DNA from: Caldifarciminota bacterium
Lineage (GTDB): Bacteria; Hydrothermota; Hydrothermia; B15-G9
Reading direction: 5' to 3'
NCBI GenBank assembly: GCA_027037615.1
Contig: JALVZN010000074.1
Span: 1-32,604, forward strand
DNA length: 32,604 bases
Part shown: one piece after another, positions 12,618 through 32,161 of the stretch
How the letters are laid out: each line of letters begins with the position of its first letter
Position numbering within the stretch: the stretch's first letter is position 1
Translations under genes and position numbers: made by a program
The notes under the pieces: model-generated
The model's database searches: none
Told to the model about the DNA's origin: nothing
Seen by the model: only the letters and a program-made list of their open reading frames with translations

Positions 12618-15600
12618 TCACCGTGAGATAATAACCTTGGTGTTCGCCTTTCCGAACGGCGTCGATACCATGATGAAATACACGCCGCTCCGAAGTTCAG
12701 CTCTCAGGTTCACATCGTGATAGCCAGCCTCTAAGTTCCTCGTTGTCTGCCAGATGCGCCTTCCGGCGATGTCATAGATTGCGAATTTCGCATCACATGT
12801 TGACGGAATGGCCAGCTTCAGACCGATGACGCTGCCCCTGACAGGGTTCTGCGCCACTCCAAGCAGCTCAAACTCGGACGGAATTTGACCTCGCGCCTCC
12901 TCGATCAGCGTTGCAGTGAAGCCCACTGTGTCGCTCGTTGTAACATTCGCAGGTTCAGCGTTGTCCGCAGCCCTCACGAAATAGCTCACAGTGTAGTTTG
13001 CGGAGTCGCCAAGCGCAGGGATTTCGCCGCTCCACACTCCACCGCTCAGGCTCATAGCAACCGAATCGAACGGCGAACCATCAACCGACCAGAACAGCCA
13101 TGCCGAACCGACACCGCTCAGGTTATCCGAAATCCACGCATCAACATCGAACGGCCCGAAGAACCAACTCGTGTCGCTCAAAACGGTCATGGAATCAACC
13201 GACGGCGGCGTTATATCCACACCGAACGAATCGATCGGCGACCATTCGGATGCGTTCCCGGCCTCGTCGAACGCCATGACATGCCACTCGTATCGCCCTT
13301 CGCTCAGCTCGACCGCCATCGCATTCGTGTCAACCGTGTCAATGAGCACCGTTGAGCCACCTGAAAGTATCTCAACGACATAGTAAACCGGTGTCGGTTT
13401 GGCCCCTAACTCGAACTCCCTCCCGACAGAGAGGACACCTGCTCCGCTTCCATGCGAGATGCCCGGCTTCCTGCCGAGAGCCGAGACGGCCATCCTGCCG
13501 TAGAATTTGCCTTTGTTGTTCAGGGTTACCGAGCTCCACTGAAGCTGGAGAGCCGTGTCGCTCAGCCAGATTCCGCCTACGGGCGCGACCAACGCCGGCA
13601 CAGAAGGCGCATGCGCGTCAACAACAAACATGCCTGCCTCACTGAAATCACCTTCAAGTCCGTCGGATGTAACCGCTTTCACTCTCCACCAATAAACCGT
13701 GTCTGCAAGCGGTTGTTCGAGCGTGTAACTCGTATCGCTTATGTTGCTGATTTCGATTAGGTTCGAGGTGAATGCAGAATCCAAAGCTATCTGGAGCACG
13801 AATGTGCCGTCGAATCCGCTATCGATCGACCACACGAATGTCGGCATGGAGTCGGTTACAAACACGGAGTTAATCGGTGAAATCAGCTCAGGCGCAGGCG
13901 GCCTCAATCCGAAGCTGACGGGAACCTCCACCATCGGATTTGCACTGTCGTTGCTCTCAATCTCAAGCGTCGCAAGGTGATAGCCGAAGCTCAGACCCGC
14001 AGAACTCATCGCAATCTCCACCATCGTCGAGTCATTTTCGGGGACGGTGTCGCAGGCAATCGAGATATAGAGCCATCCGGTATCGGGTTTCGCACCGTCC
14101 AGAAGAGCATCAAGATGCGACTTCTCACTGTAATCCACAGCGATGTTGAAGATCAGGTCAGCGCTTCCGGTGTTCTGCACGATGAGCGTCTCGGAAACGG
14201 TAACAGCGGAATCCACAACAACATCAAACTGTTCAGGCAAAGCGACAATCTCAGGCGTGTTCACGAAAACGCGGGTCATCGCCGAATTGTTCGACTCGTC
14301 GGACTCAGGGATGGAGTCGTTCGGGTCGGCATAGACCATAAGTCTCGCTGTGCCAGTGAAATCGTCGGGTATAATCCAGTCAAACTGCGCCTCAGCGCTA
14401 TCGCCGGCCTCAACAACGGGCAGGACAACGCCGTCGATGAGGCTCGTGTCGCCATCCACGAGATACAGGCGGACAAAGGCGGCCAGAGCATTGGCCAGAC
14501 CGTTGTTTCTGACCCATGCGGTTATTGTGATCGTGTCGCCGCTATGCGGATGGTCGTCGGAAACCTCAATTTCATCAGGACTTATCGTAAGATCAGGGCG
14601 ACCATGCACGAAAATTGAAGCGGAAAGCCTGTTGTTGAACTCGTTGCGTTCCATGACCGAATCGTCGATGTCAACGACTACAAAGACCTCATGCTGACCC
14701 GGCGTCGGACTCCACGGGATGGAGACGGTATCTTCGGAAAATGCTGACATCGAATCCAGCACAACGCTGTCAATCAGCTCGCCGCCGAGCATCGGATCGC
14801 CGTCGTAGAAAGCCATTGTGAATGCTCCAGCGGAAACACCACCATCGTTCGCCACAACTGCAATAAGTCCCACCGTATCGAAGCCAGTGGTGTCAAAATC
14901 GATCTCGTTCACCATGAGGTCAGGCAGAACTTTAAGCCTTGCAAATGCCATGTTGTTGCTCTCATCCGGTTCAAGCTGCTCATCGTCAGGGTCGATAACC
15001 ACGAAAATCCGATGTTCGCCGTAGGTGGCCGCAAGTCTGGTCTCAGCTTCGAGATAACCGTCAGGCGCTATGCTACCAAGCCTCACAGTATCCAGCAGAA
15101 CCGATGCGGAATCGTTAGGGTTACCCTCATAAAACGCCACAAGCACCGAATCGGACGCAACAGGCCCGATATTGTGCACCGCAACCGTAACGATAACCGT
15201 ATCGCCCACAAGCGGATTTGGATTGTCAAACGAGATGTCGGCAGAATCCACAGCCAGATCCGCGACCGCATAGCAGTCGATGGATGCGATGTTGTTCGAC
15301 TCGCTCAGCTCATTCTCGACATCCTCAGGGTCAACAACGACATAAATTCGGTTGATCCCTTCCTGAACGACCCACTGAACCGTCAGCGTTTCAGCGCTGT
15401 CAGGGCCGAGCGCTATCCTGAACTCAGGCTCGATCAACATGCCACCGGAGTCGGGATGCCCGTAAGTAAACCGCACGGTTACCGTGTCCGAAGCCACATC
15501 ACCGCCGTTCCACACCACCGCGCCGACCGTTACGGTATCGCCGGGCGATGCAAATCTCTCCGAAACTGTCATGCTCGAACTGGAGACAACGAGGTCAGGC

Positions 15601-18600
15601 AGGATCGGATGTGCACCCATGTTCAAATCGCCCAGCGACATGTCGGATTTGATACCCTTGCCAGCGAAGAACAACCCGTCGGCGAAATACATGCCGTCCT
15701 CAGCCATGCTCGGCTGTGAGCCGCTCCAGTTCCATTTCGACCAGATGTAAAGCGCATTGTTGTTGGCATCGATGGCCATCGTCGCAAGCCAATCCGTGAG
15801 CGAATCGTCGGTCAACGCTCTCGGCTGTATCCATCCGCTTCCACTGCGCAGGTCTTTCATCGTGTAGAACAGATCGCCGTCGTAGCCCTGATAGCCGCGC
15901 CAGAACACCATCACAATGCCCTGATTCGTAACCTGCACGATCGGTTGATATGCGAACTGCGGCGTCTCGTAAATCAGCTCAGGCGTGCTCCAATCGCCTG
16001 TCGTGTCCATCATCGAGAAGTAAAGCCTGTCGATGGTGCTGTCCTTCGCCGTCCACACCACAATCGCGCGACCGAGCGAATCGAAGACCACCGATGCGTT
16101 CTGCTCGGCCTCCTGTGCGGTCGAGGTCAGCATCTCAGCCGAACTCCACGAATGGCCGTCCCAGATGGCATATTTGAGGTCGGTGTCGAATGTCGTTGTA
16201 AAATCGCCGTCGCCATCGTAGAGCCACACCGCAATCGCAGTCCCATCAGGCGAATATGCGACTTTGACCATGCAATCGGCACCGTTATCGACATCGGTGC
16301 CCGGAATCGGCGCTGGCTCACTCCAATGAGTGCCGTCCCAGTAGGTGTAATAGACCGCCCAGCTCCGCCTATCCGAAATGGAATCGCTCAAAATCTTGTT
16401 CCATGCGACGAGCACCTGTCCCTGAGGGCCGACCGCGACGGATGCAAGCCCATCGGGCAGGCTGTCGCTGATGAGCGGCTGGACATCGCTCCACTCGCCC
16501 GTCGTGTGATTCCAAACCGAATAGTAGATGTCCTGAGTTCTGAAGATTGCATTGAGGTCTTTGACATAGCCCGGTGCGGTGTTGGCGCTCCACACAGCTA
16601 TCGCATCGCCGTTTGGCATGAACGCAACCACAGGGTCAAGTTCAAACCTGTCGTTTGAACCGCTCTCGATGGGCTGCGCAGTGCCCCACGATGTGCCATC
16701 CCACACGGCGTAATAGACATCCGGATCCGCACGGCCCGGCGTCGGGTCGTTGTCGTGTATCCAGACGACCATGGCATGTCCGCTGTCGTCGGTCGCCATG
16801 TATGGGTTTGGCAGGATGTCGGGCAGGTTGAGTGAATCAAGCCGTGCAAGGAGAATTGGCATCCTCTCAGCAAGTATCCGTTCGCCCTCGGTTCCGAAAG
16901 CCCACGGCCCAAGCGTATCCTGATAAAGCGTTCCTGAAATCCAGCCCCATCCGAGCGAACCTACGAGTTCAAACGGGACCACAAATGCGCCTGATAGGTG
17001 GAAACCCGGCGGCGGATAGAGCAATCTGGACTCAATGTCGGCGGTAGGATGTGCGACCATGGCGACACTTGCCACTCCGAATGCAACCTCGACTTTCGCC
17101 GATAGGTCAACGAGTATCTCCACTGCAGGGTCGATGAAGAGGCTATCGAATGTGAAGGATGAGTTTATGAACGCACCAACATCGTCTATCCTTGGCCTGA
17201 CTTCACCGCCAAAATCGACTCCTACTGTTACAGGGATACCGTGAACCAGAACATTCAGATCCTGATGGACTTCTGGCAGGACGAACGGGTCGAACTCGAA
17301 CGGCTGGTTCATGTGGAACTCTATCTGATCAAACTCAAGCGACCACGGGTCAAGATAGCCTGTAACAACGACATAGTGCTCTCTGCCAAGCTCTTCGAGT
17401 ATCTCATAGATGTTGCCGCTGAATATCTCGTTGCCCAAAATCACGATATCGCCGCCGAAATCCGGGTTGAACGGGATCGGGTCGCCGCCTCGCTCAAGCG
17501 GAACGCTGGCATTCAGTAACGCACCGGCCGCAATCCTCGTCTCAAGTCTGCCCAAAAGAAGGACATCGGACGGAATGAAATAATCGCCGTTTAAATCTAT
17601 AGGGAAATACTGCTCGCCGGTCCTGTAAACGCCTGCATCGTAATCGAAATAGAAATCACAGCCGAAATCCTGCATGTAAACCTGAAGCCAGTGCGGCATC
17701 GGAGCCGTGTTCACGGTGTAAGTAACGGGTTCGGAGGGCGTTCCGCTGAGGTCATAGGCAACGACTTTGAGCGGCACGACATGCGGAAGCTGCCCAACAT
17801 CGTATTCCACGCTCCAGCCGTCCGACGGGTCGTCATCGACAAGTGTATCGTCCTCAAAGATGAACATCACTCTCGCAACATCGTTCGCACTGTCAGGGTC
17901 CGTTACCTGAGCGGTAAATCGGTTGATAAGCTCGACGCCTGAGATGTAGCGGCCGAAGATGTCCTCGTCCGGATCGCCATCGTATTCTGCGACGACAGCC
18001 TGAACTATCGGTCCGCGCTCACGGAATGTCTCCGAGATGATGTTGTTCTCCTCGTTCGTCTCAGGGATGATGTTGTCAGGGTCAACCGAGACATAGAGCG
18101 TGTAAGACGGAAACTGAGGCGTCCAGAATGTCGAGACCGTCGTCGATTGGCCGGGATCGAGTTCATCGATGACGCTGTCGGCGATGGTGAGGAGCTCGCC
18201 TGTGCCTGCCGTGAGGTCCTCCACCATGAACCTGACGGGTATATTCCGCGCCGTATCGCCATGATTGGCGACAGTCGCCGTAATCAGAAGCCCATCGTTC
18301 TGATGCTCGACAACGAGGTCAGTGGGCGTGAGGTCGGAGGAGTATCTCACCTGACGATACAGCATCTGGATCTCCTCATCCGTCAGCGGACGGTTGTAAA
18401 CCCTGATCTCGTCAAGAAGACCGTTGAAAAGTTCGTCAATACTCCAACTGCTTAGAGCTATGTAGTTATTTGTACGCGTGATCGGGCGAGGAATGTTCGT
18501 GATGTCACTGGGCTCCCCATCAACATTGAAGGTGGGCATTCTCTCGCCGTTTATAAAGATGTCAACATGAAGGAACCCATCGTCCCCCGGCGTTCCCCTT

Positions 18601-20303
18601 GCCACTACATGCATAAGCTGGTTTCTCACTATGCCATTGAAAACTTCTACTTTCTGTGTGTGTGAATTTAGAGGGCTTCCCGGACGGTAAACCTCAAAAC
18701 ACAGGTTATTTGTTTCCTTATGCTGAGCAAACAGTATGTTATCATTTGCAGCTCCGTTGCCCAGCTCGATGATTCTTCCCCAATATCTTGGTTCCTCGAA
18801 AATCACCCATGCGCTTACGGTTATGCCATGGCTGAAATCTTCAGGGAATTCATTCAATTCTATGTAGTCGTGTTCTCCGTCGAAATGGAAGGCGTTTCCG
18901 ACAGCACCGGGAACACAGGTCGGATTGCCATGAACAATCCCATCGTGTCCATTACCCGAATTATCCGCAGCCGTGCAGTCGTCAAAAGACCAGTAAGCCA
19001 CAAGTCCGGTCTGAAGAGGCTCGATTATGGTAACATTCCATAGTGAAAATGTGGAATCCCCCCTTGAATCAAAAGCAATCAATTTGACCACTTTAGTCCC
19101 GGTTCCGTGGAAATAAATCTCCAGAGTTATAGTGTCCTCGTCCCCGTGTAATTGCTGTGTCTGAATAAGTGAATCGTCGAGGAACCATTTTGCATAGCTT
19201 AATCCATTACTGCTCAACAAAATTGCAGAAAATCGTTGCTGCTGATTTTCTAACACTGTCAATTCATGAGATTTAGGTTCCAGAACGGCAATATAAGGTT
19301 CCGAATAACACACAACCACTTCTGGATCGGGACGTGAGTATTTCCTGACAATTATGTCATCAAAAAGCCAATCGCCATTATAAGGATTCGCCCAATTGTC
19401 CTTTTTTACCCCCAATATCACAAAGTTAAATGAATCATTTTGTGGAAAATCTAAGCTAACGCTTCTAATGGTATCATTACGACTTATTAACTCGATGGAA
19501 TCACCCCATGAGGAAATTTTAAATGACTGCCATTCACTAATGTTTAAATTATGGTAAAGGACGGTTTCACCGTTTAACTGCGTTCCTTTGAATAAACCCA
19601 CAGCGTTATTCACTCCGTTTGAGCATCCGTATCTTGCTCCAAATTTAGCCGGGGTGTAAGGCTCCCACCATCTAACCCAACTTTCAGTTGATTTAGAGAT
19701 AATTACGCCGCCATCTGTCCCCCCTTTATATCTAATTTTGTAGATAAGCTGAAGCGGTTTTCCCGTGGATTCTCTGAATGAAGCGATCGCTTTGGTCACT
19801 CTTAAGTTGTCATAGCTTAATACTTCCAGCGCAAAACTTTGTCTGGTGGAGTCGTAAACAACATATCCACTTCCGTTTCCAGAAGATTCTATTCTCCATT
19901 TTGCAGTGTCCAATTGGCCAGATTCAAAATCTTCAAAGAACTCAAAGACGACATAACCGTTCGATTCGCTCTGCAAGTTTGGATCGCCATAGGTCAAATT
20001 TAGAATCTTTATTCCATTCGCTGGAATGTGTGGAACTTTCACCCAGATTAAGCTCGTGTCTCCCGGAACCCACCTTTCGATCCAATAGGGCAAAGTATCC
20101 CCGTTCTCCGGATCGATTATCCTTACGTCTCTTCCATCGCTTGTAGCCTGTGAATAATCGAAACTATCGGGAAGTATAGTTATCAACACCTGATAATCTA
20201 ATAAATCGTCGGTGTTGGAGAGATTATTTATGACAACCATGTTGCTACCAGCCCATAAGTTCGAGATACCCACAAATATCAGGACTTTTATTAAATTTTT
20301 CAT
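12618..20303 (-). CDS. Giant exported multidomain protein (DUF2341-like, LamG-like, CARDB repeats, propeller-like repeats, Por/T9SS-like C-terminal domain)
   Basis: 2561 aa. Signal peptide; N-terminal ...LLDYQVLITILPDSFDYSQATSDGRDVRIID...; LamG-like LVAYWSFDDCTAADNSGNGHDG...GNAFHFDGEHDYIEL; repeated PDL...GDTV.V.V.V.N.G...ESNN (CARDB-like); C-terminal AIYDIAGRRIWQTTRNLEAGYHDVNLRAELRSGVYFIMVSTPFGKANTKVIISR. SD GAGGAGGTGAT. Confidence 0.88.
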   Translation of the reverse strand: MKNLIKVLIFVGISNLWAGSNMVVINNLSNTDDLLDYQVLITILPDSFDYSQATSDGRDVRIIDPENGDTLPYWIERWVPGDTSLIWVKVPHIPANGIKILNLTYGDPNLQSESNGYVVFEFFEDFESGQLDTAKWRIESSGNGSGYVVYDSTRQSFALEVLSYDNLRVTKAIASFRESTGKPLQLIYKIRYKGGTDGGVIISKSTESWVRWWEPYTPAKFGARYGCSNGVNNAVGLFKGTQLNGETVLYHNLNISEWQSFKISSWGDSIELISRNDTIRSVSLDFPQNDSFNFVILGVKKDNWANPYNGDWLFDDIIVRKYSRPDPEVVVCYSEPYIAVLEPKSHELTVLENQQQRFSAILLSSNGLSYAKWFLDDSLIQTQQLHGDEDTITLEIYFHGTGTKVVKLIAFDSRGDSTFSLWNVTIIEPLQTGLVAYWSFDDCTAADNSGNGHDGIVHGNPTCVPGAVGNAFHFDGEHDYIELNEFPEDFSHGITVSAWVIFEEPRYWGRIIELGNGAANDNILFAQHKETNNLCFEVYRPGSPLNSHTQKVEVFNGIVRNQLMHVVARGTPGDDGFLHVDIFINGERMPTFNVDGEPSDITNIPRPITRTNNYIALSSWSIDELFNGLLDEIRVYNRPLTDEEIQMLYRQVRYSSDLTPTDLVVEHQNDGLLITATVANHGDTARNIPVRFMVEDLTAGTGELLTIADSVIDELDPGQSTTVSTFWTPQFPSYTLYVSVDPDNIIPETNEENNIISETFRERGPIVQAVVAEYDGDPDEDIFGRYISGVELINRFTAQVTDPDSANDVARVMFIFEDDTLVDDDPSDGWSVEYDVGQLPHVVPLKVVAYDLSGTPSEPVTYTVNTAPMPHWLQVYMQDFGCDFYFDYDAGVYRTGEQYFPIDLNGDYFIPSDVLLLGRLETRIAAGALLNASVPLERGGDPIPFNPDFGGDIVILGNEIFSGNIYEILEELGREHYVVVTGYLDPWSLEFDQIEFHMNQPFEFDPFVLPEVHQDLNVLVHGIPVTVGVDFGGEVRPRIDDVGAFINSSFTFDSLFIDPAVEILVDLSAKVEVAFGVASVAMVAHPTADIESRLLYPPPGFHLSGAFVVPFELVGSLGWGWISGTLYQDTLGPWAFGTEGERILAERMPILLARLDSLNLPDILPNPYMATDDSGHAMVVWIHDNDPTPGRADPDVYYAVWDGTSWGTAQPIESGSNDRFELDPVVAFMPNGDAIAVWSANTAPGYVKDLNAIFRTQDIYYSVWNHTTGEWSDVQPLISDSLPDGLASVAVGPQGQVLVAWNKILSDSISDRRSWAVYYTYWDGTHWSEPAPIPGTDVDNGADCMVKVAYSPDGTAIAVWLYDGDGDFTTTFDTDLKYAIWDGHSWSSAEMLTSTAQEAEQNASVVFDSLGRAIVVWTAKDSTIDRLYFSMMDTTGDWSTPELIYETPQFAYQPIVQVTNQGIVMVFWRGYQGYDGDLFYTMKDLRSGSGWIQPRALTDDSLTDWLATMAIDANNNALYIWSKWNWSGSQPSMAEDGMYFADGLFFAGKGIKSDMSLGDLNMGAHPILPDLVVSSSSMTVSERFASPGDTVTVGAVVWNGGDVASDTVTVRFTYGHPDSGGMLIEPEFRIALGPDSAETLTVQWVVQEGINRIYVVVDPEDVENELSESNNIASIDCYAVADLAVDSADISFDNPNPLVGDTVIVTVAVHNIGPVASDSVLVAFYEGNPNDSASVLLDTVRLGSIAPDGYLEAETRLAATYGEHRIFVVIDPDDEQLEPDESNNMAFARLKVLPDLMVNEIDFDTTGFDTVGLIAVVANDGGVSAGAFTMAFYDGDPMLGGELIDSVVLDSMSAFSEDTVSIPWSPTPGQHEVFVVVDIDDSVMERNEFNNRLSASIFVHGRPDLTISPDEIEVSDDHPHSGDTITITAWVRNNGLANALAAFVRLYLVDGDTSLIDGVVLPVVEAGDSAEAQFDWIIPDDFTGTARLMVYADPNDSIPESDESNNSAMTRVFVNTPEIVALPEQFDVVVDSAVTVSETLIVQNTGSADLIFNIAVDYSEKSHLDALLDGAKPDTGWLYISIACDTVPENDSTMVEIAMSSAGLSFGYHLATLEIESNDSANPMVEVPVSFGLRPPAPELISPINSVFVTDSMPTFVWSIDSGFDGTFVLQIALDSAFTSNLIEISNISDTSYTLEQPLADTVYWWRVKAVTSDGLEGDFSEAGMFVVDAHAPSVPALVAPVGGIWLSDTALQLQWSSVTLNNKGKFYGRMAVSALGRKPGISHGSGAGVLSVGREFELGAKPTPVYYVVEILSGGSTVLIDTVDTNAMAVELSEGRYEWHVMAFDEAGNASEWSPIDSFGVDITPPSVDSMTVLSDTSWFFGPFDVDAWISDNLSGVGSAWLFWSVDGSPFDSVAMSLSGGVWSGEIPALGDSANYTVSYFVRAADNAEPANVTTSDTVGFTATLIEEARGQIPSEFELLGVAQNPVRGSVIGLKLAIPSTCDAKFAIYDIAGRRIWQTTRNLEAGYHDVNLRAELRSGVYFIMVSTPFGKANTKVIISR

Positions 20304-20318
20304 AAAATCATCACCTCC

Positions 20319-20786
20319 TCATTGATTTCCAAAGAGAAGATACCCAACGAGCGCAATTATTAACAGAACTCCAACAGCAGTGAGGATTTCTGTAAAATGG
20401 TATATGAAAATCCCCAACGCAATTATCCCCAGAACTACTTGAACAACAGCTGACCCTGATTCAGCAGCCATGCCAATAAGCAGAGCTATGAAAAAAGAAG
20501 CCGCTAAACCTTTCCAGAATTGGTCCCATGTGGATGTTGAAGTCGAATCTTTCGGATGTGATTCGTCGGAACTGCTGGAAGGAAGTTCTATGTCGTAATC
20601 AGGTTCGGGATAATAACTGCTCGGAGTGTAACTTTCACTGCCCGAATATGTTTCGGGTTCGGGATCATCAACCTGCACATAAATGTAACCTTTGCCGTGA
20701 CACTTAGGACACGGCCTCGGCCCTATGGAAGTCATAATATACCTCAACCCACCACATGTCGGACATTTCACCTTTTCATAAGCCAT
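20319..20786 (-). CDS. Membrane-anchored protein with DnaJ-type zinc-finger motifs
   Basis: Start reassigned from 20804 to ATG 20786 (SD GGAGGTGACATC): MAYEKVKCPTCGGLRYIMTSIGPRPCPKCHGKGYIYV, Ser/Pro/Glu-rich linker, then hydrophobic segments. Stop lies next to the SD of the giant gene. Confidence 0.8.
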   Translation of the reverse strand: MAYEKVKCPTCGGLRYIMTSIGPRPCPKCHGKGYIYVQVDDPEPETYSGSESYTPSSYYPEPDYDIELPSSSSDESHPKDSTSTSTWDQFWKGLAASFFIALLIGMAAESGSAVVQVVLGIIALGIFIYHFTEILTAVGVLLIIALVGYLLFGNQ

Positions 20787-20885
20787 GATGTCACCTCCAT
20801 ACATTTTGTGTTTTTTCGATACTGAGCATCAACCGCTTGCGTTTCTTAAACTTATGTTCTCAAAACCTTCCGTAATAAAACCAGA

Positions 20886-20901
20886 GGCAACAATCGTGCC
20901 A
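20886..20901 (-). promoter_or_regulatory. sigma-54 promoter (TGGCACGATTGTTGCC) of the zinc-finger/giant-protein operon
   Basis: Matches TGGCACG-N4-TTGC with GG-N10-GC spacing, about 100 nt upstream of ATG 20786. Confidence 0.85.
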
Positions 20902-20943
20902 TAAGGGAATGGCGCAATTTCGGGGGTTTTAGAAGCCCCTCGA

Positions 20944-20958
20944 GTCTCATTTTGATAC
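20944..20958. promoter_or_regulatory. Palindromic site A1 GTCTCATTTTGATAC
   Basis: One-mismatch version of GTCTCA-TTT-TGAGAC; centre 51 bp upstream of the -24 GG at 20899-20900. Confidence 0.7.
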
Positions 20959-21012
20959 CTCAATGTCGGCGGTGTCCGTCGATGATGCTGTGATACAAAG
21001 CTTTACCCTATG

Positions 21013-21027
21013 TCTCATTTTGATACT
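21013..21027. promoter_or_regulatory. Palindromic site A2 GTCTCATTTTGATAC
   Basis: Same motif, 69 bp from A1 and 20 bp from A3. Confidence 0.7.
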
Positions 21028-21032
21028 AAAAG

Positions 21033-21047
21033 TCTCACTTTGAGACC
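21033..21047. promoter_or_regulatory. Palindromic site A3 GTCTCACTTTGAGAC
   Basis: Perfect GTCTCA/TGAGAC arms. Confidence 0.75.
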
Positions 21048-21132
21048 AAGAAGGGGGTTTCATAACCGTAAAACCATCGATAAAACCCAGCTTATTGACA
21101 GATGCGATGGATACCTCCATTTTAGAGACCAA

Positions 21133-21180
21133 ATTCACCAAAATTGATACTAATTCGGTGAGTTTATTCACCAAAATTGA
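21133..21180. repeat. Direct repeat ATTCACCAAAATTGA, two copies 33 bp apart
   Basis: Identical 15-mers at 21133-21147 and 21166-21180, just upstream of the ATPase start. Confidence 0.85.
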
Positions 21181-21202
21181 CATCTTTCAGGGAGGACTTG
21201 AG

Positions 21203-22357
21203 ATGATCGTCGAAAGGACAATTTTGAAACGCATTGAGCAATACCTATTTAAGGGCAAAATAATCGCCATCTACGGGGCAAGGCAGGTCGGAAAGACAAC
21301 CCTTGTGAAAGAACTTATCAAAAAATTCCCCGACAACTCCATTTACCTGAATTGTGATGAACCGGATGTCAGGGTGCTCCTGAGCAACAAAACATCCACT
21401 GAATTGAGGCACATTGTTGGAGATAAAAGACTTGTGGTCATAGACGAGGCTCAAAGGGTGAGGGACATCGGGATCACCTTAAAATTGATGGTGGACAATT
21501 TCCCCGAAAAGCAGATAGTCGTAACAGGATCATCATCTTTCGAGCTAACGGGGAAAATAGCTGAACCTCTGACGGGAAGAAAAATCGATTTCATCCTTTT
21601 CCCTTTCTCTCTTGAGGAAATTTCTCAAATCTATTCCCTTTTAGAGATCAAACGGCTTCTCCCGTCGTTTCTGGTTTATGGGATGTATCCCGAAGTTGTT
21701 CTGAAACCTGAGCTTGCCCGTGAAATTTTGAGATCGATCGCTTACAGCTATGCCTTCAAAGACATCTTCCAGCTCTATCAGCTCAGGAATCCGGAGGTTT
21801 TAGAGAAACTCCTTCAGGCACTTGCGCTTCAGCTCGGCGCCGAAGTCTCCTACAACGAGCTTTCAAGTCTGGTAGGAGTTGATAAGAACACTGTTGCAAA
21901 TTACATCCGCATCCTCGAACGGGCGTTTATCACCTTCAAACTCCCTCCGTTCAGTCGGAACCTCCGAAACGAATTGAAAAAGCTGAGAAAAGTTTTCTTT
22001 TTCGATGTCGGCGTGAGGAATGCATATATAAACAACTTCAATCCGATAGACCTCAGGGACGATGTCGGTAAGCTGTGGGAGAACTTCGTGATACTGGAGC
22101 GAATGAAACTGCTGTTAAATCACGGCATTCATGCCAGTTTCTACTTCTGGAGGAGAAACCGGAAGGAGATCGACCTGATTGAGGAGAGAGAAGGCAAGCT
22201 CTACGCATACGAAATCAAATGGAGAAAAAGGAAAGCAAGGCTCCCCGTAGCCTTTCAGGAGGCCTATCCCAACTCACAGTTCTCCGTGATCACACGGGAA
22301 AACTTCCTTGAGTTTTTGCTGCCCGATGGGTTTAACAAAATCACAGAAAGCACCTGA
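21203..22357 (+). CDS. AAA_14/DUF4143 family ATPase
   Basis: Start reassigned from 21095 to ATG 21203 (SD GGGAGGA): MIVERTILKRIEQYLFKGKIIAIYGARQVGKTTLVKELI...LVVIDEAQRVRDIGITLKLMVDNFPEKQIVVTGSSSFEL... DUF4143-like C-terminus YFWRRNRKEIDLIEEREGKLYAYEIKW. Confidence 0.9.
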   Translation: MIVERTILKRIEQYLFKGKIIAIYGARQVGKTTLVKELIKKFPDNSIYLNCDEPDVRVLLSNKTSTELRHIVGDKRLVVIDEAQRVRDIGITLKLMVDNFPEKQIVVTGSSSFELTGKIAEPLTGRKIDFILFPFSLEEISQIYSLLEIKRLLPSFLVYGMYPEVVLKPELAREILRSIAYSYAFKDIFQLYQLRNPEVLEKLLQALALQLGAEVSYNELSSLVGVDKNTVANYIRILERAFITFKLPPFSRNLRNELKKLRKVFFFDVGVRNAYINNFNPIDLRDDVGKLWENFVILERMKLLLNHGIHASFYFWRRNRKEIDLIEEREGKLYAYEIKWRKRKARLPVAFQEAYPNSQFSVITRENFLEFLLPDGFNKITEST

Positions 22358-22474: not shown

Positions 22475-24508
22475 CTAAAATTTAACGAATTTACCGGATA
22501 TCTTTCGCTTAGAAGTCGTTATGAGGTAGAGGTATTTGCCTGACGGGAGGACGGATATGTCCGCATCGTATTTGAGCACACCGTCACGATTTATGGAAAT
22601 CTCTTTGACCAACCGCCCAGCGACATCGTATATCGCCAGTTTCTCGACCCTTTCGTTCGGCAGGTTAAACCTGATCCTCAGCTTTTTGCCCGTGTAGTAA
22701 ACGAGGAGATTTTTGGAGAAAGGCTTCGTTTTTTGCTCAGTCTCCTTAATCCCCGGAGTCGGAAGCACATAACCAACATATGGTACTTCGTATATTCCCG
22801 GTGTGTTGGTTATAAAAGTCATGTTGCCAGATGTATCCATAGCTACTAAATTCTTATCTCCGTGCCATAGTTCATGACCTACAAAAATAACATCGTTTAA
22901 GCCAGGAACAACGGCTATTGTTGTAATTCCCTCAGTATCAGCAAGGGCTGTTATTTGATGCACATTATTGCCTTCTAAATCCATCCAATACGCATCCATC
23001 GGCGAATAGTAGCTGTAATGGTTACGAGCGAAATATATCCTCTGGGTGTCGCCGGATATTACAGGTGTCCAATCAATTACATTGTTGTTTGTTAATTGCT
23101 GGATGGTTGAGACATCCACGGTTCCATCGCGGTAGATCGCTTTGTAGATCTCATAGGTGGGTGACCAACATCCGTCTTGGGTATTGAACAACACGACCGA
23201 ATCATTCACAAAAGTCATCGCTTTAGTGTAAGTCGCTTCACCATCTCCATAAGCAGCTGGGTCAAGGACAAGATGGTTATCGGAACCGTCCATTTTTACG
23301 GCATAAAACTTCCTGATACAGCTATGCCATGGCTCAATATAGATTATATTTCCATCCGGATGCCAATATTCTGCCTGCCTTACCCCTCCATTATATGAAT
23401 TTGGCGTTGGAACCTCGAATTCTATTCCAAGATTCATGTCCAGAATCCACAGATGTCGATTTTCCTCAGGTGAAGACTTAGGCGCTTTTGAATAAGCAAA
23501 ATACCTTCCATCTGGAGATAACACACCAGCAAATTCATCCATATTGGGATCTGTCAAGAAGGGGATCAATGTATCATTGTCAACATCATAAACATACACA
23601 TCCACTGACTGATTGTTTTCGACATCCGCATAAAGAATAAATACTCCCCTTCTCGGCAGCTCGATCGGTTGGATCCTTGCTTCGCCGTTCAGGAAGTTGC
23701 GCAGGACGGTATAAGCCACCGGGCCGAGGTATCCCTCATTTTCCGACATCAATGCCACATCCGCCCACGGAAACGGGAGAACATATCCGTTGCCAACGAG
23801 ATACAGATAGATTTCAGCAGTGTAGATATTCCTCTCACCGTCACAAACGCCGGGATAGTTCACACATTGATCGCCCTGCCCCTGATAAGGCCATCCGTAA
23901 GTTGTTTTTAGCTCAACATATCTGACAGTATCGTAAGGCGCAACAACAGGCTCGAAGTTCACTCTCTGGGTAACGACAGGATGGTTGACCACGGTTATCA
24001 GACTTGGCCCGGGCTCCTTACGGTGCTGATAGCTGCTGTCGGGCTGCCATTCAGCGATGTGCCTGAAGATGGGATGCGGGTCAAGGGTGCTAACCAGATA
24101 CTTCGCCTCATAAGATGAAGGGGTGTAAGACCCAACAGTCGCATCCAAAAGCCCCATGTATTCGCCCACAAACAATCCATAATAGGAGATCATCAAATTG
24201 CCGCCCTGCTCCAGAAAATCCTGTAACGCATTGAGAACTGTCGAGTTGTTGAACTGTATAGGCTCTCTGTCCGTGTGAATCCATATCACATCGATATTAT
24301 CGAGGCTGTAACCCGAAATTATGTCGTTGACATCAAGCACGATAGCGGTATCTGTCGGCGGGTCATTGAGGATATGGCTTATGAAGAAGTAGGCAGCGTT
24401 TTCCTCCTCAGTCATGTTTGTTTTGTCAGGCACAAGCAAGGCGCCCTGATAGGCGCTTAACTGCGCTACCGCCATTATTATGAGACTCACAATTGCCAAC
24501 CTTCTCAT
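22475..24508 (-). CDS. Exported TolB/PD40-like propeller protein with Por/T9SS-like C-terminal domain
   Basis: 677 aa; signal peptide; DEFAGVLSPDGRYFAYSKAP, AEYWHPDGNIIYIEP, PVISGDTQRIYFARN; C-terminal KLAIYDVAGRLVKEISINRDGVLKYDADISVLPSGKYLYLITTSKRKISGKFVKF. Confidence 0.82.
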   Translation of the reverse strand: MRRLAIVSLIIMAVAQLSAYQGALLVPDKTNMTEEENAAYFFISHILNDPPTDTAIVLDVNDIISGYSLDNIDVIWIHTDREPIQFNNSTVLNALQDFLEQGGNLMISYYGLFVGEYMGLLDATVGSYTPSSYEAKYLVSTLDPHPIFRHIAEWQPDSSYQHRKEPGPSLITVVNHPVVTQRVNFEPVVAPYDTVRYVELKTTYGWPYQGQGDQCVNYPGVCDGERNIYTAEIYLYLVGNGYVLPFPWADVALMSENEGYLGPVAYTVLRNFLNGEARIQPIELPRRGVFILYADVENNQSVDVYVYDVDNDTLIPFLTDPNMDEFAGVLSPDGRYFAYSKAPKSSPEENRHLWILDMNLGIEFEVPTPNSYNGGVRQAEYWHPDGNIIYIEPWHSCIRKFYAVKMDGSDNHLVLDPAAYGDGEATYTKAMTFVNDSVVLFNTQDGCWSPTYEIYKAIYRDGTVDVSTIQQLTNNNVIDWTPVISGDTQRIYFARNHYSYYSPMDAYWMDLEGNNVHQITALADTEGITTIAVVPGLNDVIFVGHELWHGDKNLVAMDTSGNMTFITNTPGIYEVPYVGYVLPTPGIKETEQKTKPFSKNLLVYYTGKKLRIRFNLPNERVEKLAIYDVAGRLVKEISINRDGVLKYDADISVLPSGKYLYLITTSKRKISGKFVKF

Positions 24509-24639
24509 GACACCCTCCTATGTTTTTGATAAGCCTCTGTTTTCGAGTCATCAAAATTCGACCAGAGCCTCCAAACTCATCTTTAAACATGCACGGTTCT
24601 TAAACTTATGTTCTTAAAACTCACCGTAATAAAACCAAA

Positions 24640-24655
24640 GGCAATAATCGTGCCA
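24640..24655 (-). promoter_or_regulatory. sigma-54 promoter (TGGCACGATTATTGCC) of the 22475-24508 gene
   Basis: GG (24654-24653)-N10-GC (24642-24641); near-consensus. Confidence 0.88.
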
Positions 24656-24697
24656 GATAAAAACGACGGTATTTCGGGGTATTTTTGGGGCGATTCG

Positions 24698-24712
24698 TCT
24701 CATTTTGAGACC
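24698..24712. promoter_or_regulatory. Palindromic site B1 GTCTCATTTTGAGAC
   Basis: Perfect palindrome arms; centre 51 bp from the leftward -24 GG. Confidence 0.78.
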
Positions 24713-24764
24713 GAAGTGTTAGGTTACTATGAGATATTTATCTGACGCACAATCACTTAAGCCG

Positions 24765-24779
24765 TATCTCATTTTGAGA
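24765..24779. promoter_or_regulatory. Palindromic site B2 ATCTCATTTTGAGAC
   Basis: One-base variant, 20 bp from B3. Confidence 0.72.
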
Positions 24780-24784
24780 CCGAA

Positions 24785-24799
24785 AGTCTCACTTTGAGA
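24785..24799. promoter_or_regulatory. Palindromic site B3 GTCTCACTTTGAGAC
   Basis: Perfect arms; centre 51 bp from the rightward -24 GG at 24843-24844. Confidence 0.78.
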
Positions 24800-24841
24800 C
24801 CGAAATCGGAAGCAAAGTCGTTGAACCTCAGGATAACATAG

Positions 24842-24857
24842 TGGCATAAAAGTTGCC
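24842..24857 (+). promoter_or_regulatory. sigma-54 promoter (TGGCATAAAAGTTGCC) of the lipoprotein-kinase-EBP operon
   Basis: GG-N10-GC spacing; expected TSS about 3 nt before ATG 24871. Confidence 0.78.
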
Positions 24858-24870
24858 CTAAAATTTAAAT

Positions 24871-26313
24871 ATGAAGGTGAAAAATTTAATCCTTTTGATA
24901 GCGATAAGCCTTTTCGTAGGGTGCAAAAACAGGCAAGGGAAGGAGGGAGCTGTTCGGATATCGCCCTCCATCGAGGAGCGCGTGTTGCTGAACGATGTTT
25001 TTGTCTCAGAAGCGACAATAGTCCAGGATCTGGATGGAAACCTGTATCTCCTCCTCAAAAAGATCAACTCCATCGAGTGCTACCGGATAGTAACCGAAAG
25101 GGACAGCATCAATCTCAAATTCCTGTGGAAACACGAGGGGCTTTCCGTAATCCCGCTTATCAACTATCAATCGCCCGATGCGAGAACCAATTACATCGTG
25201 GCTCTGCCATCCGCAAATCCTGTAAAAAGGATGAGGGATGGGGACACCACATTTAAAGTCAGAGTCTATTCCCTCAAACTGGAGACAGGCGAAATCGTTG
25301 ACAGTGCATTTTACATTTCAACAAGCGGAGCTATGCCCATAAAAGACTTGTGGTTACAAAGAAATTGGCTGCTCATCCCTGACAGGAATGTACACATAGA
25401 CATCCGGCTGCCATCTAAATATGTGATATTTCAGATCGATAAAAACGGGAGATTTAAAAAGCGGCTCGATGTGCCATTCGGAGGACAAATTGTTTCCGTT
25501 GCAATTGTAGGCGACAAATACGCGCTTGTAAGCACTGCACTTCTTGGGAACCTCGTTCGGACAAAAATCTCAGGTGTGTCCGATTGGTTTACAGGCGTAT
25601 TTTTGATTTCTCTGGACGATGGGAAAATCCTTGACCATTTAGTGGTGCATTCCGGAACTTACGGTGATTCTCGCATATACCCCACATCTTCGGATTCCGA
25701 ATGGGTGATCTACGACAGGTGTTATTTCTGCGAGCGATGCGGTGCCACAATTTATAAGGTCAGAATTGCCCCTCTCAGAATTGTTAACTCCATCTCTTTC
25801 GACGAAGGTGTGTCCGTTGGACGGCCTTTCAGGTTCAAAGGCAAACTCTTATATCCCTCGTTCCTGATAAATTCAAAGAAACTTCTCTTGCTGGACGAAA
25901 ACCTGAAGATATTCAGGGAGATCCCCCGCCCTAAATACGAATATGACTCCGTGTATGTTATGCATTACACATCGCTTAAGAGCAGGAGAGGCACGGATGT
26001 TTCTGTCAACGCCGTTCAAATAACTGGCAATGAATATCCGGCCATTGTTGTGGAATTTGACAAGAAAGGGCAAATTGTGAGAGATCCATCACATGCTGGA
26101 GGCCGGGATGTTGAGGGAAAACTCCAGAATGTGCCCGAAGTGTTTGTTTATCTTCCACCCTACGATAGGCTAAACGGGCGGGCTGTTCTGGACAAAAAGG
26201 GAGCATTCCCGGCTAATGTTCCCGGAATCAAAGACAGGCTGGTTGTCTTCTCTCCCATGCAATATAACAAGCTGGTGCTGCGTGAGTTAAAGATTTTCGA
26301 TAAAAGCAGATGA
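24871..26313 (+). CDS. Lipoprotein, possibly beta-propeller, first gene of the two-component operon
   Basis: 480 aa, lipobox-like MKVKNLILLIAISLFVGCKN; repeated beta-strand units; 16 bp from the kinase gene. Confidence 0.75.
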   Translation: MKVKNLILLIAISLFVGCKNRQGKEGAVRISPSIEERVLLNDVFVSEATIVQDLDGNLYLLLKKINSIECYRIVTERDSINLKFLWKHEGLSVIPLINYQSPDARTNYIVALPSANPVKRMRDGDTTFKVRVYSLKLETGEIVDSAFYISTSGAMPIKDLWLQRNWLLIPDRNVHIDIRLPSKYVIFQIDKNGRFKKRLDVPFGGQIVSVAIVGDKYALVSTALLGNLVRTKISGVSDWFTGVFLISLDDGKILDHLVVHSGTYGDSRIYPTSSDSEWVIYDRCYFCERCGATIYKVRIAPLRIVNSISFDEGVSVGRPFRFKGKLLYPSFLINSKKLLLLDENLKIFREIPRPKYEYDSVYVMHYTSLKSRRGTDVSVNAVQITGNEYPAIVVEFDKKGQIVRDPSHAGGRDVEGKLQNVPEVFVYLPPYDRLNGRAVLDKKGAFPANVPGIKDRLVVFSPMQYNKLVLRELKIFDKSR

Positions 26314-26329
26314 ACTAAGGGAGGGCAAA

Positions 26330-28693
26330 ATGGTGTGGATTTTGACATTGACCCTGTTATCGTGGACGCCCTTCGGCGTCAAGATGTTCAATTTGAGTGA
26401 CCCGCCAATCGGCGTATTCAGGACCGAAAATCACATGTATGTCGTCTCGCACAACGGCACAGTTTACAAAATATCTTTCAAACCAGACATAACTGATTTT
26501 GCGGAAATTTCGGACTCTTTCAAACTGCCGCTCACGAAAATCGTTCCCGGACGGAGGGGTAAAAGCGGCAATTTTAAGGTCCACAACATCGTTTACTGGC
26601 GCAAACGGCTCGTGGTTCTGACCGATTACGGCGTCTATGTCTCGGACACAGGTGAGGATTTCCGAAAATGGAAACCGATAACCATGGGCCGCGCGGTGGA
26701 GATAGCGGGGGATTCGGAAAACCTGTTCATTTTGTTTCCTCAAAAAGTGGTCAGGGTCATCGAGCGAAACGGGGAACACTCGATCGAGAATGTCGCGAAA
26801 GTCAACCTAACGGAACCCTGTTTCTCAAGCTTCATCGATGGCACTCTGTTTTTTGAATCATCTGACACGCTGTGCATTGTGAGCGGGGATTCCCTGAAAA
26901 GGTTTGCTTTACCGGAACCGAAGGGGAATGTAGTTAAGTATAATGTGCTCGTAGAATTCATTGTGAGAAAGCATTATCCCGACATCTTCGGAAATGGCAA
27001 GTTTGTTGCAAGGGATAGCTCGTCGGGTTACACGGTGGCTTATATCGGAAGTTATGAGGAGAAGGGGCGTGAAAATCCCAGAGCTTTCAGCCATTATCTG
27101 GTTCTGGATAGCAGCTTCAACGCAGTCGATACCTTTTCCATTCCCGACTTTGAGCATACGGATGTCATTTTCAATGAAGGGTATTTCTGGATAATGGGCA
27201 TAAAATCCATCTTTGGAGGGGCACTTTACGGACTTCGAGGAAATCCACCTGTCCTAAAAGACTCGTTTTCTACAAAACTCATGTCATTAACAGGTATTCC
27301 TTCAGATAAAGGAATCAATTTTGCTACCTATGTGCCAAGTTTTGTGGCCATTTTCCAAAACGAAGCACCTGAACATTTGTATTCATCGTTCATTGAGTTT
27401 CCTGAGATATTCTGGTTCAGCAAGAAACTGCCGTTTCTACACGATGGGCCATCGGATTTTGTCATGTTCAGCAGCTCGTTCAACCCCACTCTCACTTTTG
27501 ACGAGCGCAACAACGGTATTGTCCTCCTCGTGCCACGAATCGATGAGGCGCTCGGTTACGCCGCATCGCTTGTCAGCTGGGCGAAAAGGCATCAGCACAT
27601 CTGGAGCGCGGGGAAGGCGCTCGATAGCCTCGATGCCGCTATGGAAATCTACCGCGTCCTGAAACCCGATACGCTCGCACACCTTTTCAAGCTCAGAGAG
27701 AGCCTTTACCGACAGGTCAAACTCATAAAGTTCGTCAAAACCAACTGGCTCAAGAGCCTGCTTGCGGTCATCTGGGTGCTGACAGTCCTGATGTTCCTGA
27801 GGGCAAAACGGACTTTCCGCAAATTCAGGTATCAATACGCGCCGCTGCCATCTGAGGAGACGATCAAAGGCGTTATGAGGATCCCGATCTTTCACAAGTT
27901 CCCATCGCTCTGGCAGCCGATTGTTGAAAATCATGGCTTTGACTGCGATGTCCTGAAGGATGAAAACCTTTACAAAAACCTCCAGGAGTCGCTCCGCATG
28001 CTTGTGGCAATGGAAAAGGATTTCCGCAATGTGCATCCGCGCTGGGAATCGCTTTTCAAACGGACAAAATGGAATTTGCTCCTGCTCTCAAACATCTTCA
28101 GCCTGCATCGGCTCTGCAGATTGGGCGGCATCTTCAAAAATCTACTGAAGCGTTCGACTGTCAGCCTTCTCAGGCACATCGCAAATGTGAGGAATGAACT
28201 CAAGAGCATGCTTGAGAAGGAGAGAGCCGACATCATTCAGGGCGCTCTGCTCCCGGTTGTGGAGGACATAAGAAAAAACTATGCGGCTCAAGGTGTTATC
28301 GTGAATACGGAGATCACTCAGCAGGCATCTTACGCTTTCTATCCGTCGGAACTCGCGAAATTTCAGTGTTGCTTCAAGGCCATCCTCGAAAACGCCATAG
28401 AATCCTATACCGATGGCAATACGATAAAGAAGATAGACATCAAAGTCAGAGCACTGCCGGATGTGCTGGAAATATCGATCAGAGATTACGGAAAAGGACT
28501 GCCTCCGCAGATGATCTCAAAGATATTTGAACCGGGATTCTCCTACGGCAAACAGGGCAAAGAGCGTGGTTACGGATTGGCCGGATGCGATGAACTCTTC
28601 AGGAAACACGGCGAAATCGAGGTGAAATCGGAGCCCAACAAAGGCACATCGTTTAACATAAAGATCTATTTTCTGCCGAAAAGGAGGCGATAA
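26330..28693 (+). CDS. Sensor histidine kinase with exported propeller-like sensor domain
   Basis: 787 aa; signal/TM at N-terminus, repetitive beta domain, TM SLLAVIWVLTVLMFL, possible H-box LLRHIANVRNEL, HATPase motifs AILENAIESY, RDYGKGLPP, KERGYGLAG. Confidence 0.85.
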   Translation: MVWILTLTLLSWTPFGVKMFNLSDPPIGVFRTENHMYVVSHNGTVYKISFKPDITDFAEISDSFKLPLTKIVPGRRGKSGNFKVHNIVYWRKRLVVLTDYGVYVSDTGEDFRKWKPITMGRAVEIAGDSENLFILFPQKVVRVIERNGEHSIENVAKVNLTEPCFSSFIDGTLFFESSDTLCIVSGDSLKRFALPEPKGNVVKYNVLVEFIVRKHYPDIFGNGKFVARDSSSGYTVAYIGSYEEKGRENPRAFSHYLVLDSSFNAVDTFSIPDFEHTDVIFNEGYFWIMGIKSIFGGALYGLRGNPPVLKDSFSTKLMSLTGIPSDKGINFATYVPSFVAIFQNEAPEHLYSSFIEFPEIFWFSKKLPFLHDGPSDFVMFSSSFNPTLTFDERNNGIVLLVPRIDEALGYAASLVSWAKRHQHIWSAGKALDSLDAAMEIYRVLKPDTLAHLFKLRESLYRQVKLIKFVKTNWLKSLLAVIWVLTVLMFLRAKRTFRKFRYQYAPLPSEETIKGVMRIPIFHKFPSLWQPIVENHGFDCDVLKDENLYKNLQESLRMLVAMEKDFRNVHPRWESLFKRTKWNLLLLSNIFSLHRLCRLGGIFKNLLKRSTVSLLRHIANVRNELKSMLEKERADIIQGALLPVVEDIRKNYAAQGVIVNTEITQQASYAFYPSELAKFQCCFKAILENAIESYTDGNTIKKIDIKVRALPDVLEISIRDYGKGLPPQMISKIFEPGFSYGKQGKERGYGLAGCDELFRKHGEIEVKSEPNKGTSFNIKIYFLPKRRR

Positions 28694-28696
28694 GAC

Positions 28697-30061
28697 ATGT
28701 TCCTCGTGCTCGACGACGAGAATTATGTTGAAAAGGTGTTGAAGAGCGCTTTTCCGAACAGGGAGATCGTGCACACCCGCACATCCAGACAGTTTATAGA
28801 AAAGTTGAAGAGTTTTAAGGACATACGGGCTGCCGTTGTCGATCAATACATCGAACACGGGAGCTATCCGGAATCCGAATTCCTGTCGGATTCGCCGGAA
28901 TATGAAGGCTTCTCCGTCGCCGTAGAGGCCAGAAAATTGCGACCCGATGTCCCTGTTTTCCTTTTGACCAGATTTGCCGAAAGCTCAATCTTCATGAGAG
29001 CATATCAATACGGGATAATCCCGATAGAATTCGTTGACGAAAAGTTGACCGCCAGAATTCTGAGGGAAAGGATATTGAGGACCGACCCTGAGATAACGAG
29101 GGAGCTTGTCAAAGAATATCGAAAATTGGGCTGGGTGGCCGAATCGCCTAAATCCAGAGAGCTGATCTGGGAGATAGAGCACAATTACAAGGATTCCGAT
29201 GAACCGCTTCTGATCACAGGCGAGATCGGGGTCGGCAAGACCCTGCTGGCGAAGATCATCCATAAGCGCTCAAAGAGGGCCAACAGCCCGGTAATGACTT
29301 TTGTGATAAGCGCATACCCCAGAGAAAACCTGTATTACATGCTGTTTGGTGCCGCTCCGCGCGCTTTCACAGGCGTGAAAGGTGGCCCGGGATTGGTCGA
29401 AACGGTGGGAGAAGGCACGCTCATCCTTGACGAGATCGGCGACCTGCCCATCGAAGTCCAGCTCCACTTGCACACTCTCCTTGAGGAGAGAAGGTTCAGG
29501 AGGATGCAGGAGTCCAAAGATAGGATCTTCAAAGGCAGGATTATCGTCCTGACGCACAAAAACTTGAAAAATCTGGTCAAACAAAATCTTTTCAGGGAAG
29601 ACCTGCTGAGCCGAATAAGCGGCCTGCACATCCACATCCCGCCTTTAAGAGAACGGAGAGAGGACATAAGGCCGCTTCTGGAGTTCTATTGCGACGACAT
29701 GGAGTTCACCGACAGGGCTATGGAGCTGCTTGTGAACGAGTATCCATATCCTGCAAATGTGAGGAGCCTCAAGAAGATCTGCCAGTTTTTGAGGCACGAG
29801 AACAAAAACCGATTGGTCACGCTGGACATAGTGATCAAGGCAATCACCCACTATGAACAGGATGAACCCACGCATGAAAATGGCTTAAGCTTTGAGAGGA
29901 TACTGGATTGGATGCTGGAGAACGGTATAACACTGAAAGCATTGAGAGACAGCATCGTGAAGGCAGGCTACGAGAAATTGGGTAAAACATGGAACGAAGA
30001 ATGGGAGAAACTGGGCCTCACCAAAGCCACATTTTACAGGATGCTGAAATCGGATAAATGA
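28697..30061 (+). CDS. Sigma-54 dependent response regulator (receiver, AAA+, C-terminal HTH)
   Basis: 454 aa; receiver MFLVLDDEN...AAVVDQYI...FLLTRF; Walker A GEIGVGKTLLAK; RAFTGV at the GAFTGA position; Walker B GTLILDEIGDLPIEVQ; FREDLLSRISGLHIHIPPLRERREDI; C-terminal HTH-like TKATFYRMLKSDK. Confidence 0.93.
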   Translation: MFLVLDDENYVEKVLKSAFPNREIVHTRTSRQFIEKLKSFKDIRAAVVDQYIEHGSYPESEFLSDSPEYEGFSVAVEARKLRPDVPVFLLTRFAESSIFMRAYQYGIIPIEFVDEKLTARILRERILRTDPEITRELVKEYRKLGWVAESPKSRELIWEIEHNYKDSDEPLLITGEIGVGKTLLAKIIHKRSKRANSPVMTFVISAYPRENLYYMLFGAAPRAFTGVKGGPGLVETVGEGTLILDEIGDLPIEVQLHLHTLLEERRFRRMQESKDRIFKGRIIVLTHKNLKNLVKQNLFREDLLSRISGLHIHIPPLRERREDIRPLLEFYCDDMEFTDRAMELLVNEYPYPANVRSLKKICQFLRHENKNRLVTLDIVIKAITHYEQDEPTHENGLSFERILDWMLENGITLKALRDSIVKAGYEKLGKTWNEEWEKLGLTKATFYRMLKSDK

Positions 30062-30184
30062 GAAATGGGCTTCCTCACGCCCCAACTCGGCCGGAATTGG
30101 GTGTCGTGGCGAAAAAAAAACAACACCGGATAGCCCTGACCTCATTGCGATCCTGCCATCAAAATCGCTTCTCTACGGGCAATG

Positions 30185-30199
30185 GGCACGAAAATTGCC
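30185..30199 (+). promoter_or_regulatory. sigma-54 promoter (GGCACGAAAATTGCC) of the kelch gene
   Basis: GG (30185-30186)-N10-GC (30197-30198), near-consensus; expected TSS about 6 nt before ATG 30216. Confidence 0.83.
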
Positions 30200-32145: not shown

Positions 32146-32161
32146 TGGCACACATCTTGCC
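32146..32161 (+). promoter_or_regulatory. sigma-54 promoter (TGGCACACATCTTGCC) of the 32201 gene
   Basis: GG (32147-32148)-N10-GC (32159-32160), 40 nt upstream of ATG 32201. Confidence 0.82.

Follow-up and report, generated by a model that had tools for sequence, protein, structure and literature searches.

Two cassettes in this locus are most likely, judging from their sequence, the landing sites of the adjoining sensor-regulator pair, which would activate genes for surface proteins that are secreted and include a giant one. In the window, by which we mean the whole analysed stretch of 32,604 nucleotides, cassette 2 occupies 20840-21047 and cassette 1 occupies 24594-24800. Both hold a leader, a -24/-12 element, a single palindrome and a palindrome pair in the same order, as the first-pass annotation had described. 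We consider it highly probable that these are sigma-54 promoters with their enhancers, driven by the two-component system encoded next to them (24871-30061), which would act on three promoters.

Layout of the two cassettes

Cassette 2 consists of the following parts.

20944..20958, plus strand, palindrome A1, GTCTCATTTTGATAC (sequence match, geometry)
21012..21026, plus strand, palindrome A2, GTCTCATTTTGATAC (sequence match, geometry)
21032..21046, plus strand, palindrome A3, GTCTCACTTTGAGAC (20 bp from A2, centre to centre)
20886..20901, minus strand, -24/-12 (sigma-54-type) element, TGGCACGATTGTTGCC (element scan)
20840..20885, minus strand, leader of 46 nt (40 of 46 positions identical to 24594-24639)

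Read along the minus strand, A3 and A2 come first; 53 bp separate A2 from A1 and 42 bp separate A1 from TGGCACGATTGTTGCC, which is followed by the 46-nt leader. The earliest codon at which the 161-aa gene could start lies about 36 bp beyond the leader. Cassette 1 is built from corresponding parts, with a further promoter element on the opposite side.

24697..24711, plus strand, palindrome A1 (sequence match, geometry)
24766..24780, plus strand, palindrome A2, ATCTCATTTTGAGAC, one mismatch (sequence match, geometry)
24786..24800, plus strand, palindrome A3 (sequence match, geometry)
24640..24655, minus strand, -24/-12 element, TGGCACGATTATTGCC (element scan)
24594..24639, minus strand, leader copy (alignment with the cassette 2 leader)
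24842..24857, plus strand, mirrored -24/-12 element of the regulator operon, TGGCATAAAAGTTGCC (A3 50.5 bp away)

The genes under the cassettes, and the divergent neighbour of cassette 2, are these.

20319..20804, minus strand, opening gene of the operon presumed to be controlled, protein with a DnaJ-like zinc ribbon and apparent membrane segments (likely start 20786)
12618..20303, minus strand, giant protein of 2561 aa with DUF2341, LamG-like and CARDB repeats (15 bp downstream of the zinc-ribbon gene and presumably in the same operon)
22475..24508, minus strand, PD40 beta-propeller protein ending in a T9SS-type sorting domain (downstream of cassette 1)
21095..22357, plus strand, AAA_14/DUF4143 ATPase (no sigma-54 promoter)

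Measured from the -24 GG, the palindrome centres fall at 51.5 (A1), 119.5 (A2) and 139.5 bp (A3) in cassette 2, and at 50.5, 119.5 and 139.5 bp in cassette 1. A1 had been placed exactly 51 bp from the -24 GG in both copies; its two distances in fact differ by 1 bp, and the exactly placed part is the A2-A3 pair. Among the spacings given earlier (69+20 versus 67+20 bp), 69 and 20 hold, while the A1-A2 distance of cassette 2 is 68 bp rather than 67. From the consensus GTCTCAyTTTGAGAC given earlier, two of the three cassette 2 sites, which read GTCTCATTTTGATAC, differ by one base.

Between the cassettes, identity amounts to 15/15 for A3, 13/15 for A2, 14/15 for A1, 15/16 for the -24/-12 element and 40/46 for the leader, and just outside the cassettes matches fall to 12/30 and 12/40. 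The A1-A2 spacer has 30 aligned matches where shuffled sequences average 30.7, which is chance level, and in the promoter-A1 spacer 26 of 45 columns match, with 6.6% of shuffles equally good. The spacer divergence reported before is confirmed for the A1-A2 spacer; in the promoter-A1 spacer some similarity is kept. A recent duplication of an intergenic block would explain the likeness by ancestry, without selection on the architecture, and some copying event must have occurred, given the shared order and spacing and a leader that is 87% identical. We nevertheless hold recent neutral duplication to be very improbable, because a recent neutral copy would be uniformly similar, whereas here sites, promoter, leader and A2/A3 distances are kept and the A1-A2 spacer is at chance level. 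The proposal of selection on the architecture is supported by the confinement of the sites to two sigma-54 promoter regions, and strengthened by operator pairs in a second genome, G007 (see below).

In cassette 1, two divergent -24/-12 elements flank the three palindromes, each 50.5 bp from its nearest palindrome. Because the sites sit between divergent promoters they are transcribed by neither, and an action at the level of DNA is therefore favoured. The -12 GC of the mirrored element lies only 14 nt before the ATG of the lipoprotein gene, both here (24842-24871) and in the relative G002 (L059:1405-1434), so the mRNA of the regulator operon is probably leaderless. With its sites kept, a spacer at chance and a mirrored geometry, the locus offers a simple case for studying the constraints on bacterial enhancer architecture.

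On the DUF4143 side of cassette 2, the element scan found no sigma-54-like element at the mirrored position, in agreement with the first-pass annotation. The ATPase gene (21094-22324) behaves as a module and is differently placed in relatives (G002, G003 and G005). Its DNA homology to G002 and G003 starts at 21094, outside cassette 2 and within about 5 bp of where the mirrored -24 GG would fall; the module may, speculatively, have displaced a mirrored promoter of cassette 2.

Of all the cassette parts, the leader is explained least, though it is strongly kept. A search of 10 genomes of the order found it twice, once in each cassette, and the idea of a leader family shared across the order was dropped for this reason. 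The RNA fold is not convincing (z of -0.23 and -1.84), and no Rfam family matched. Within the leader (20850-20875 and 24604-24629), two similar 11-mers, GTTTTRAGAAC and GTTTAAGAAMC, lie 15 bp apart.

Occurrence of the promoter elements and palindromes

Elements of the form GG-N10-GC in TGGCAC/TTGC context stand upstream of genes, as expected of sigma-54-type promoters. Five strong -24/-12 elements occur in the window, where shuffles give 0.32. All but one of them (20886, 24640, 24842 and 32146) fall in intergenic DNA, which makes up 6.7% of the window, and each of these four lies upstream of a correctly oriented gene. The element at 32146-32161 (plus strand) precedes a CarboxypepD_reg gene, and a slightly weaker sigma-54-like element at 30184-30199 (plus strand) precedes a kelch/T9SS-tail gene; both recur in G001 (L058), and there are no palindromes in their neighbourhood. 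There may be further sigma-54 targets in the locus beyond the cassettes.

The gene for sigma-54, rpoN, was not found in the assembly of the genome itself; it is present in G001, G002, G003 and most relatives. The G001 stretch matching the rpoN region maps to the first base of a contig here, with the rpoN side absent. Because the relatives carry rpoN and synteny stops at the contig edge, an assembly gap is the likely reason for its absence.

With up to 3 mismatches, GTCTCAYTTTGAGAC has 9 matches in the window where 1.8 were expected, a number reached in 0 of 100 shuffles. In the 2.06-Mb assembly, GTCTCANTTTGAKAC with at most 1 mismatch has 6 matches, all inside the two cassettes, against 0 for a control pattern. 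The 35-base pair pattern (at most 3 mismatches, fixed 20-bp spacing) was likewise found in the two cassettes only, among ten genomes of the order. Triplets scattered without promoters, which would have spoken against the earlier proposal, were thus not seen, and copies stand only at two sigma-54 promoter regions of the assembly.

Over the phylum, an exact pair of the A2-A3 type (3-9 bp apart) was detected in 2 of 148 genomes, namely the present one and G007, while a reversed control pattern gave 0. In G007 the exact pair occurs twice, at both ends of an operon of lipoprotein, histidine kinase and sigma-54 activator. The spacing within the pair is 21 bp there and 20 bp in the present genome, about two helical turns. 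The first G007 pair lies 62.5/83.5 bp from TGGAATAAAAATTGCG of a divergent lipoprotein gene. The second is found at the 3' end of a gene whose T9SS-type tail scores just under the family cut-off, between convergent gene ends; its nearest candidate promoter, TGGAAGGAAAATTGCA, is that of the flanking T9SS-tail gene, about 1.25 kb away. Because these pairs flank an operon of matching gene order, the palindrome travels with the regulator, which ties it, as a putative operator, to the regulator family of 28697-30061; independent support for this link comes from one genome, G007.

Among the other relatives, no operator pair was found in the contigs searched of G001, G002, G005 and G009, whose sequence ahead of the operon is either lacking or replaced. 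The contig of the sister genome G001, with a 97% identical activator, ends inside the kinase; in G002, DUF4143 stands where the operator region would be, and no palindromes were found in the contig searched. Matches to GTMTCANNNTGAKAC elsewhere in G001, G002, G005, G009 and contig C20 of G007 were set aside, being single, partnerless and coding in appearance by eye.

These distributions bear on whether the palindromes could be a mobile or spurious repeat, such as insertion-element ends or attenuator hairpins. They could fold as short hairpins, and the DUF4143 module beside cassette 2 is placed differently in relatives. Yet the assembly holds no palindrome copies outside the two cassettes, the cassette 1 sites lie upstream of both divergent promoters and are hence untranscribed by them, the DUF4143 homology begins outside cassette 2, cassette 1 has no DUF4143 neighbour, and there is no Rfam match. 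As the G007 pairs moreover flank a matching regulator operon, we give this explanation hardly any credence.

Regulator operon and proposed mechanism

The operon adjoining cassette 1 encodes the three parts of the proposed system.

24871..26313, plus strand, lipoprotein, first gene of the regulator operon (gene position also before the kinase in G002, G009 and G007)
26330..28693, plus strand, membrane sensor histidine kinase (HATPase_c)
28697..30061, plus strand, NtrC-family response regulator, proposed palindrome binder (receiver, sigma-54 AAA+, C-terminal HTH)

Operons of relatives were paired with this one through their gene order and the identity of their regulators. Neither Pfam nor NCBIfam gave a match for the lipoprotein, so that no TPR was found in it, and it shares its gene position with the G007 lipoprotein without detectable sequence similarity. 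In the DHp region of the kinase there is no invariant His among four orthologs; an invariant His occurs in an FHK motif (residue 522). The predicted structure of the kinase, at pLDDT 57, is too poor for use.

The activator is encoded about 4 kb from cassette 1. Its sigma-54 AAA+ domain matches PF00158 (Sigma54_activat, E 2.4e-38), with GEIGVGK and LILDEIGD as Walker A and B, and D6, D7, D49 and T91 are conserved in its receiver domain. In the structural model, strands and helices alternate in the N-terminal part, and towards the C terminus there are helices at 413-428, 434-438 and 443-452 (HTH); the nearest fold is NtrC1, and the nearest solved structures are NtrC1 and NtrX. In the sigma-54 contact loop FTG is kept, with FTGV instead of the FTGA of GAFTGA in 6/6 orthologs. 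Orthologs of the activator are 97% (G001), 69% (G002), 45% (G009), 44-46% (G005) and 38% (G007) identical, and the named genomes searched with it yielded only generic activators, with 27-40% best-segment identity.

We infer the following course of events. In response to a signal, phosphorylated dimers of the activator would bind the palindrome GTMTCA-N3-TGAKAC, and the A2-A3 pair, two helical turns apart, would nucleate a ring-shaped AAA+ oligomer. Through a DNA loop this ring would reach sigma-54 RNA polymerase on the -24/-12 element, where it would open the promoter. The nearer site A1, at about -75, might bring in a third dimer; alternatively, its closeness might impose an upper limit when the regulator is abundant. 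The zinc-ribbon/giant-protein operon would be controlled through cassette 2 and the T9SS-tail propeller gene through cassette 1. The third target would be the regulator's own operon, read from the mirrored promoter, with the cassette 1 sites serving both directions and autoregulation as the result. Against TIGR04183 (T9SS type A sorting domain, cut-off 23), 22475-24508 scores 30.5 and 30216-31397 scores 29.9, both above the cut-off, and the tail of the giant protein weakly resembles that of the PD40 protein (E 8e-4).

The palindromes might instead be used by another regulator, for instance a repressor or one-component factor, with the promoters fired by one of the other strong activators. The genome does encode three further strong sigma-54 activators, and by the standards of enhancers A1 lies close, at about -75. 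Operator pairs, however, accompany the regulator operon in the independent genome G007 and are absent from the other phylum genomes (148 searched), although sigma-54 activators themselves are present in most relatives searched. We regard control by another regulator as unlikely, and keep the adjoining two-component system as the preferred reading. Points that count against this preferred reading are the absence of rpoN from the assembly (probably a gap), the support from a single independent genome, the 1.25 kb between the second G007 pair and its nearest candidate promoter, the FTGV contact loop and the lack of an invariant His in the DHp region of the kinase.

Comparison with known systems

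The closest parallel is PrsK/PrsR, for which a lipoprotein, PrsT, and a pair of sigma-54 motifs ahead of PEP-CTERM genes have been described (Haft et al. 2006, PMC1569441); one PEP-CTERM gene has been reported to depend on RpoN (PMC9850573). Both systems combine a membrane kinase, a Fis-type NtrC-like regulator and a lipoprotein, and the targets, presumed ones in our case, are secreted and bear a sorting tag at the C terminus. The layout is comparable too, as the PrsK/PrsR enhancer motif, sometimes repeated, lies about 63 nt before the -24/-12 element (PMC1569441). In contrast, the target tail here is of T9SS type and not PEP-CTERM, and the palindrome is GTMTCA-N3-TGAKAC, whereas the PEP-CTERM motif ends in TTTACA. 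The activator scores 154.1 against the PrsR model TIGR02915 (cut-off 502.6) and the kinase 36.8 against the PrsK model TIGR02916 (cut-off 300), both below the cut-offs.

With the NtrC enhancer of glnAp2 and other NtrC-family enhancers, of which a minimal form has been described (PMC4740811), the cassettes share the arrangement of paired dimer sites placed tens to hundreds of bp ahead of a -24/-12 element. The receiver-AAA-HTH order of the activator is likewise that of NtrC. The present system differs from NtrC enhancers in its operator sequence and in the third, closer site A1, and, unlike NtrC, only two target regions were found here, both in the regulator's own locus. Against the ntrC equivalog the activator scores 165.6, far below the cut-off of 558.6. 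In Desulfovibrio, according to a comparative genomics study, locally autoregulated sigma-54 activators with inverted-repeat sites were reconstructed, the inverted repeat lying, as here, upstream of the activator's own gene (PMC4641369). The example motif given there, yGTCA-N6-TGACr, differs from our palindrome, and GTCTC and GAGAC are absent from the main text of the study. A literature search for the palindrome halves together with sigma54 returned no title or abstract with a related description.

From sequence alone, a kinase-regulator pair is here given a candidate operator and a small putative regulon, in a lineage represented in this study by draft genomes only. This suggests that tight enhancer-dependent control also extends to tag-sorted surface proteins beyond the PEP-CTERM systems. 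As a more tentative reading, possible but rather doubtful in its entirety, the locus could be a dedicated two-component sigma-54 circuit for T9SS-tail proteins, convergent with PrsK/PrsR, in which two divergent promoters are fired by one symmetric enhancer of three sites and the conserved 46-nt leader adds a further level of control on the mRNAs of the targets. In kind the system is familiar, with NtrC-type enhancers and an ordinary mechanism; its putative operator, for which we found no earlier description, and its lineage are new.
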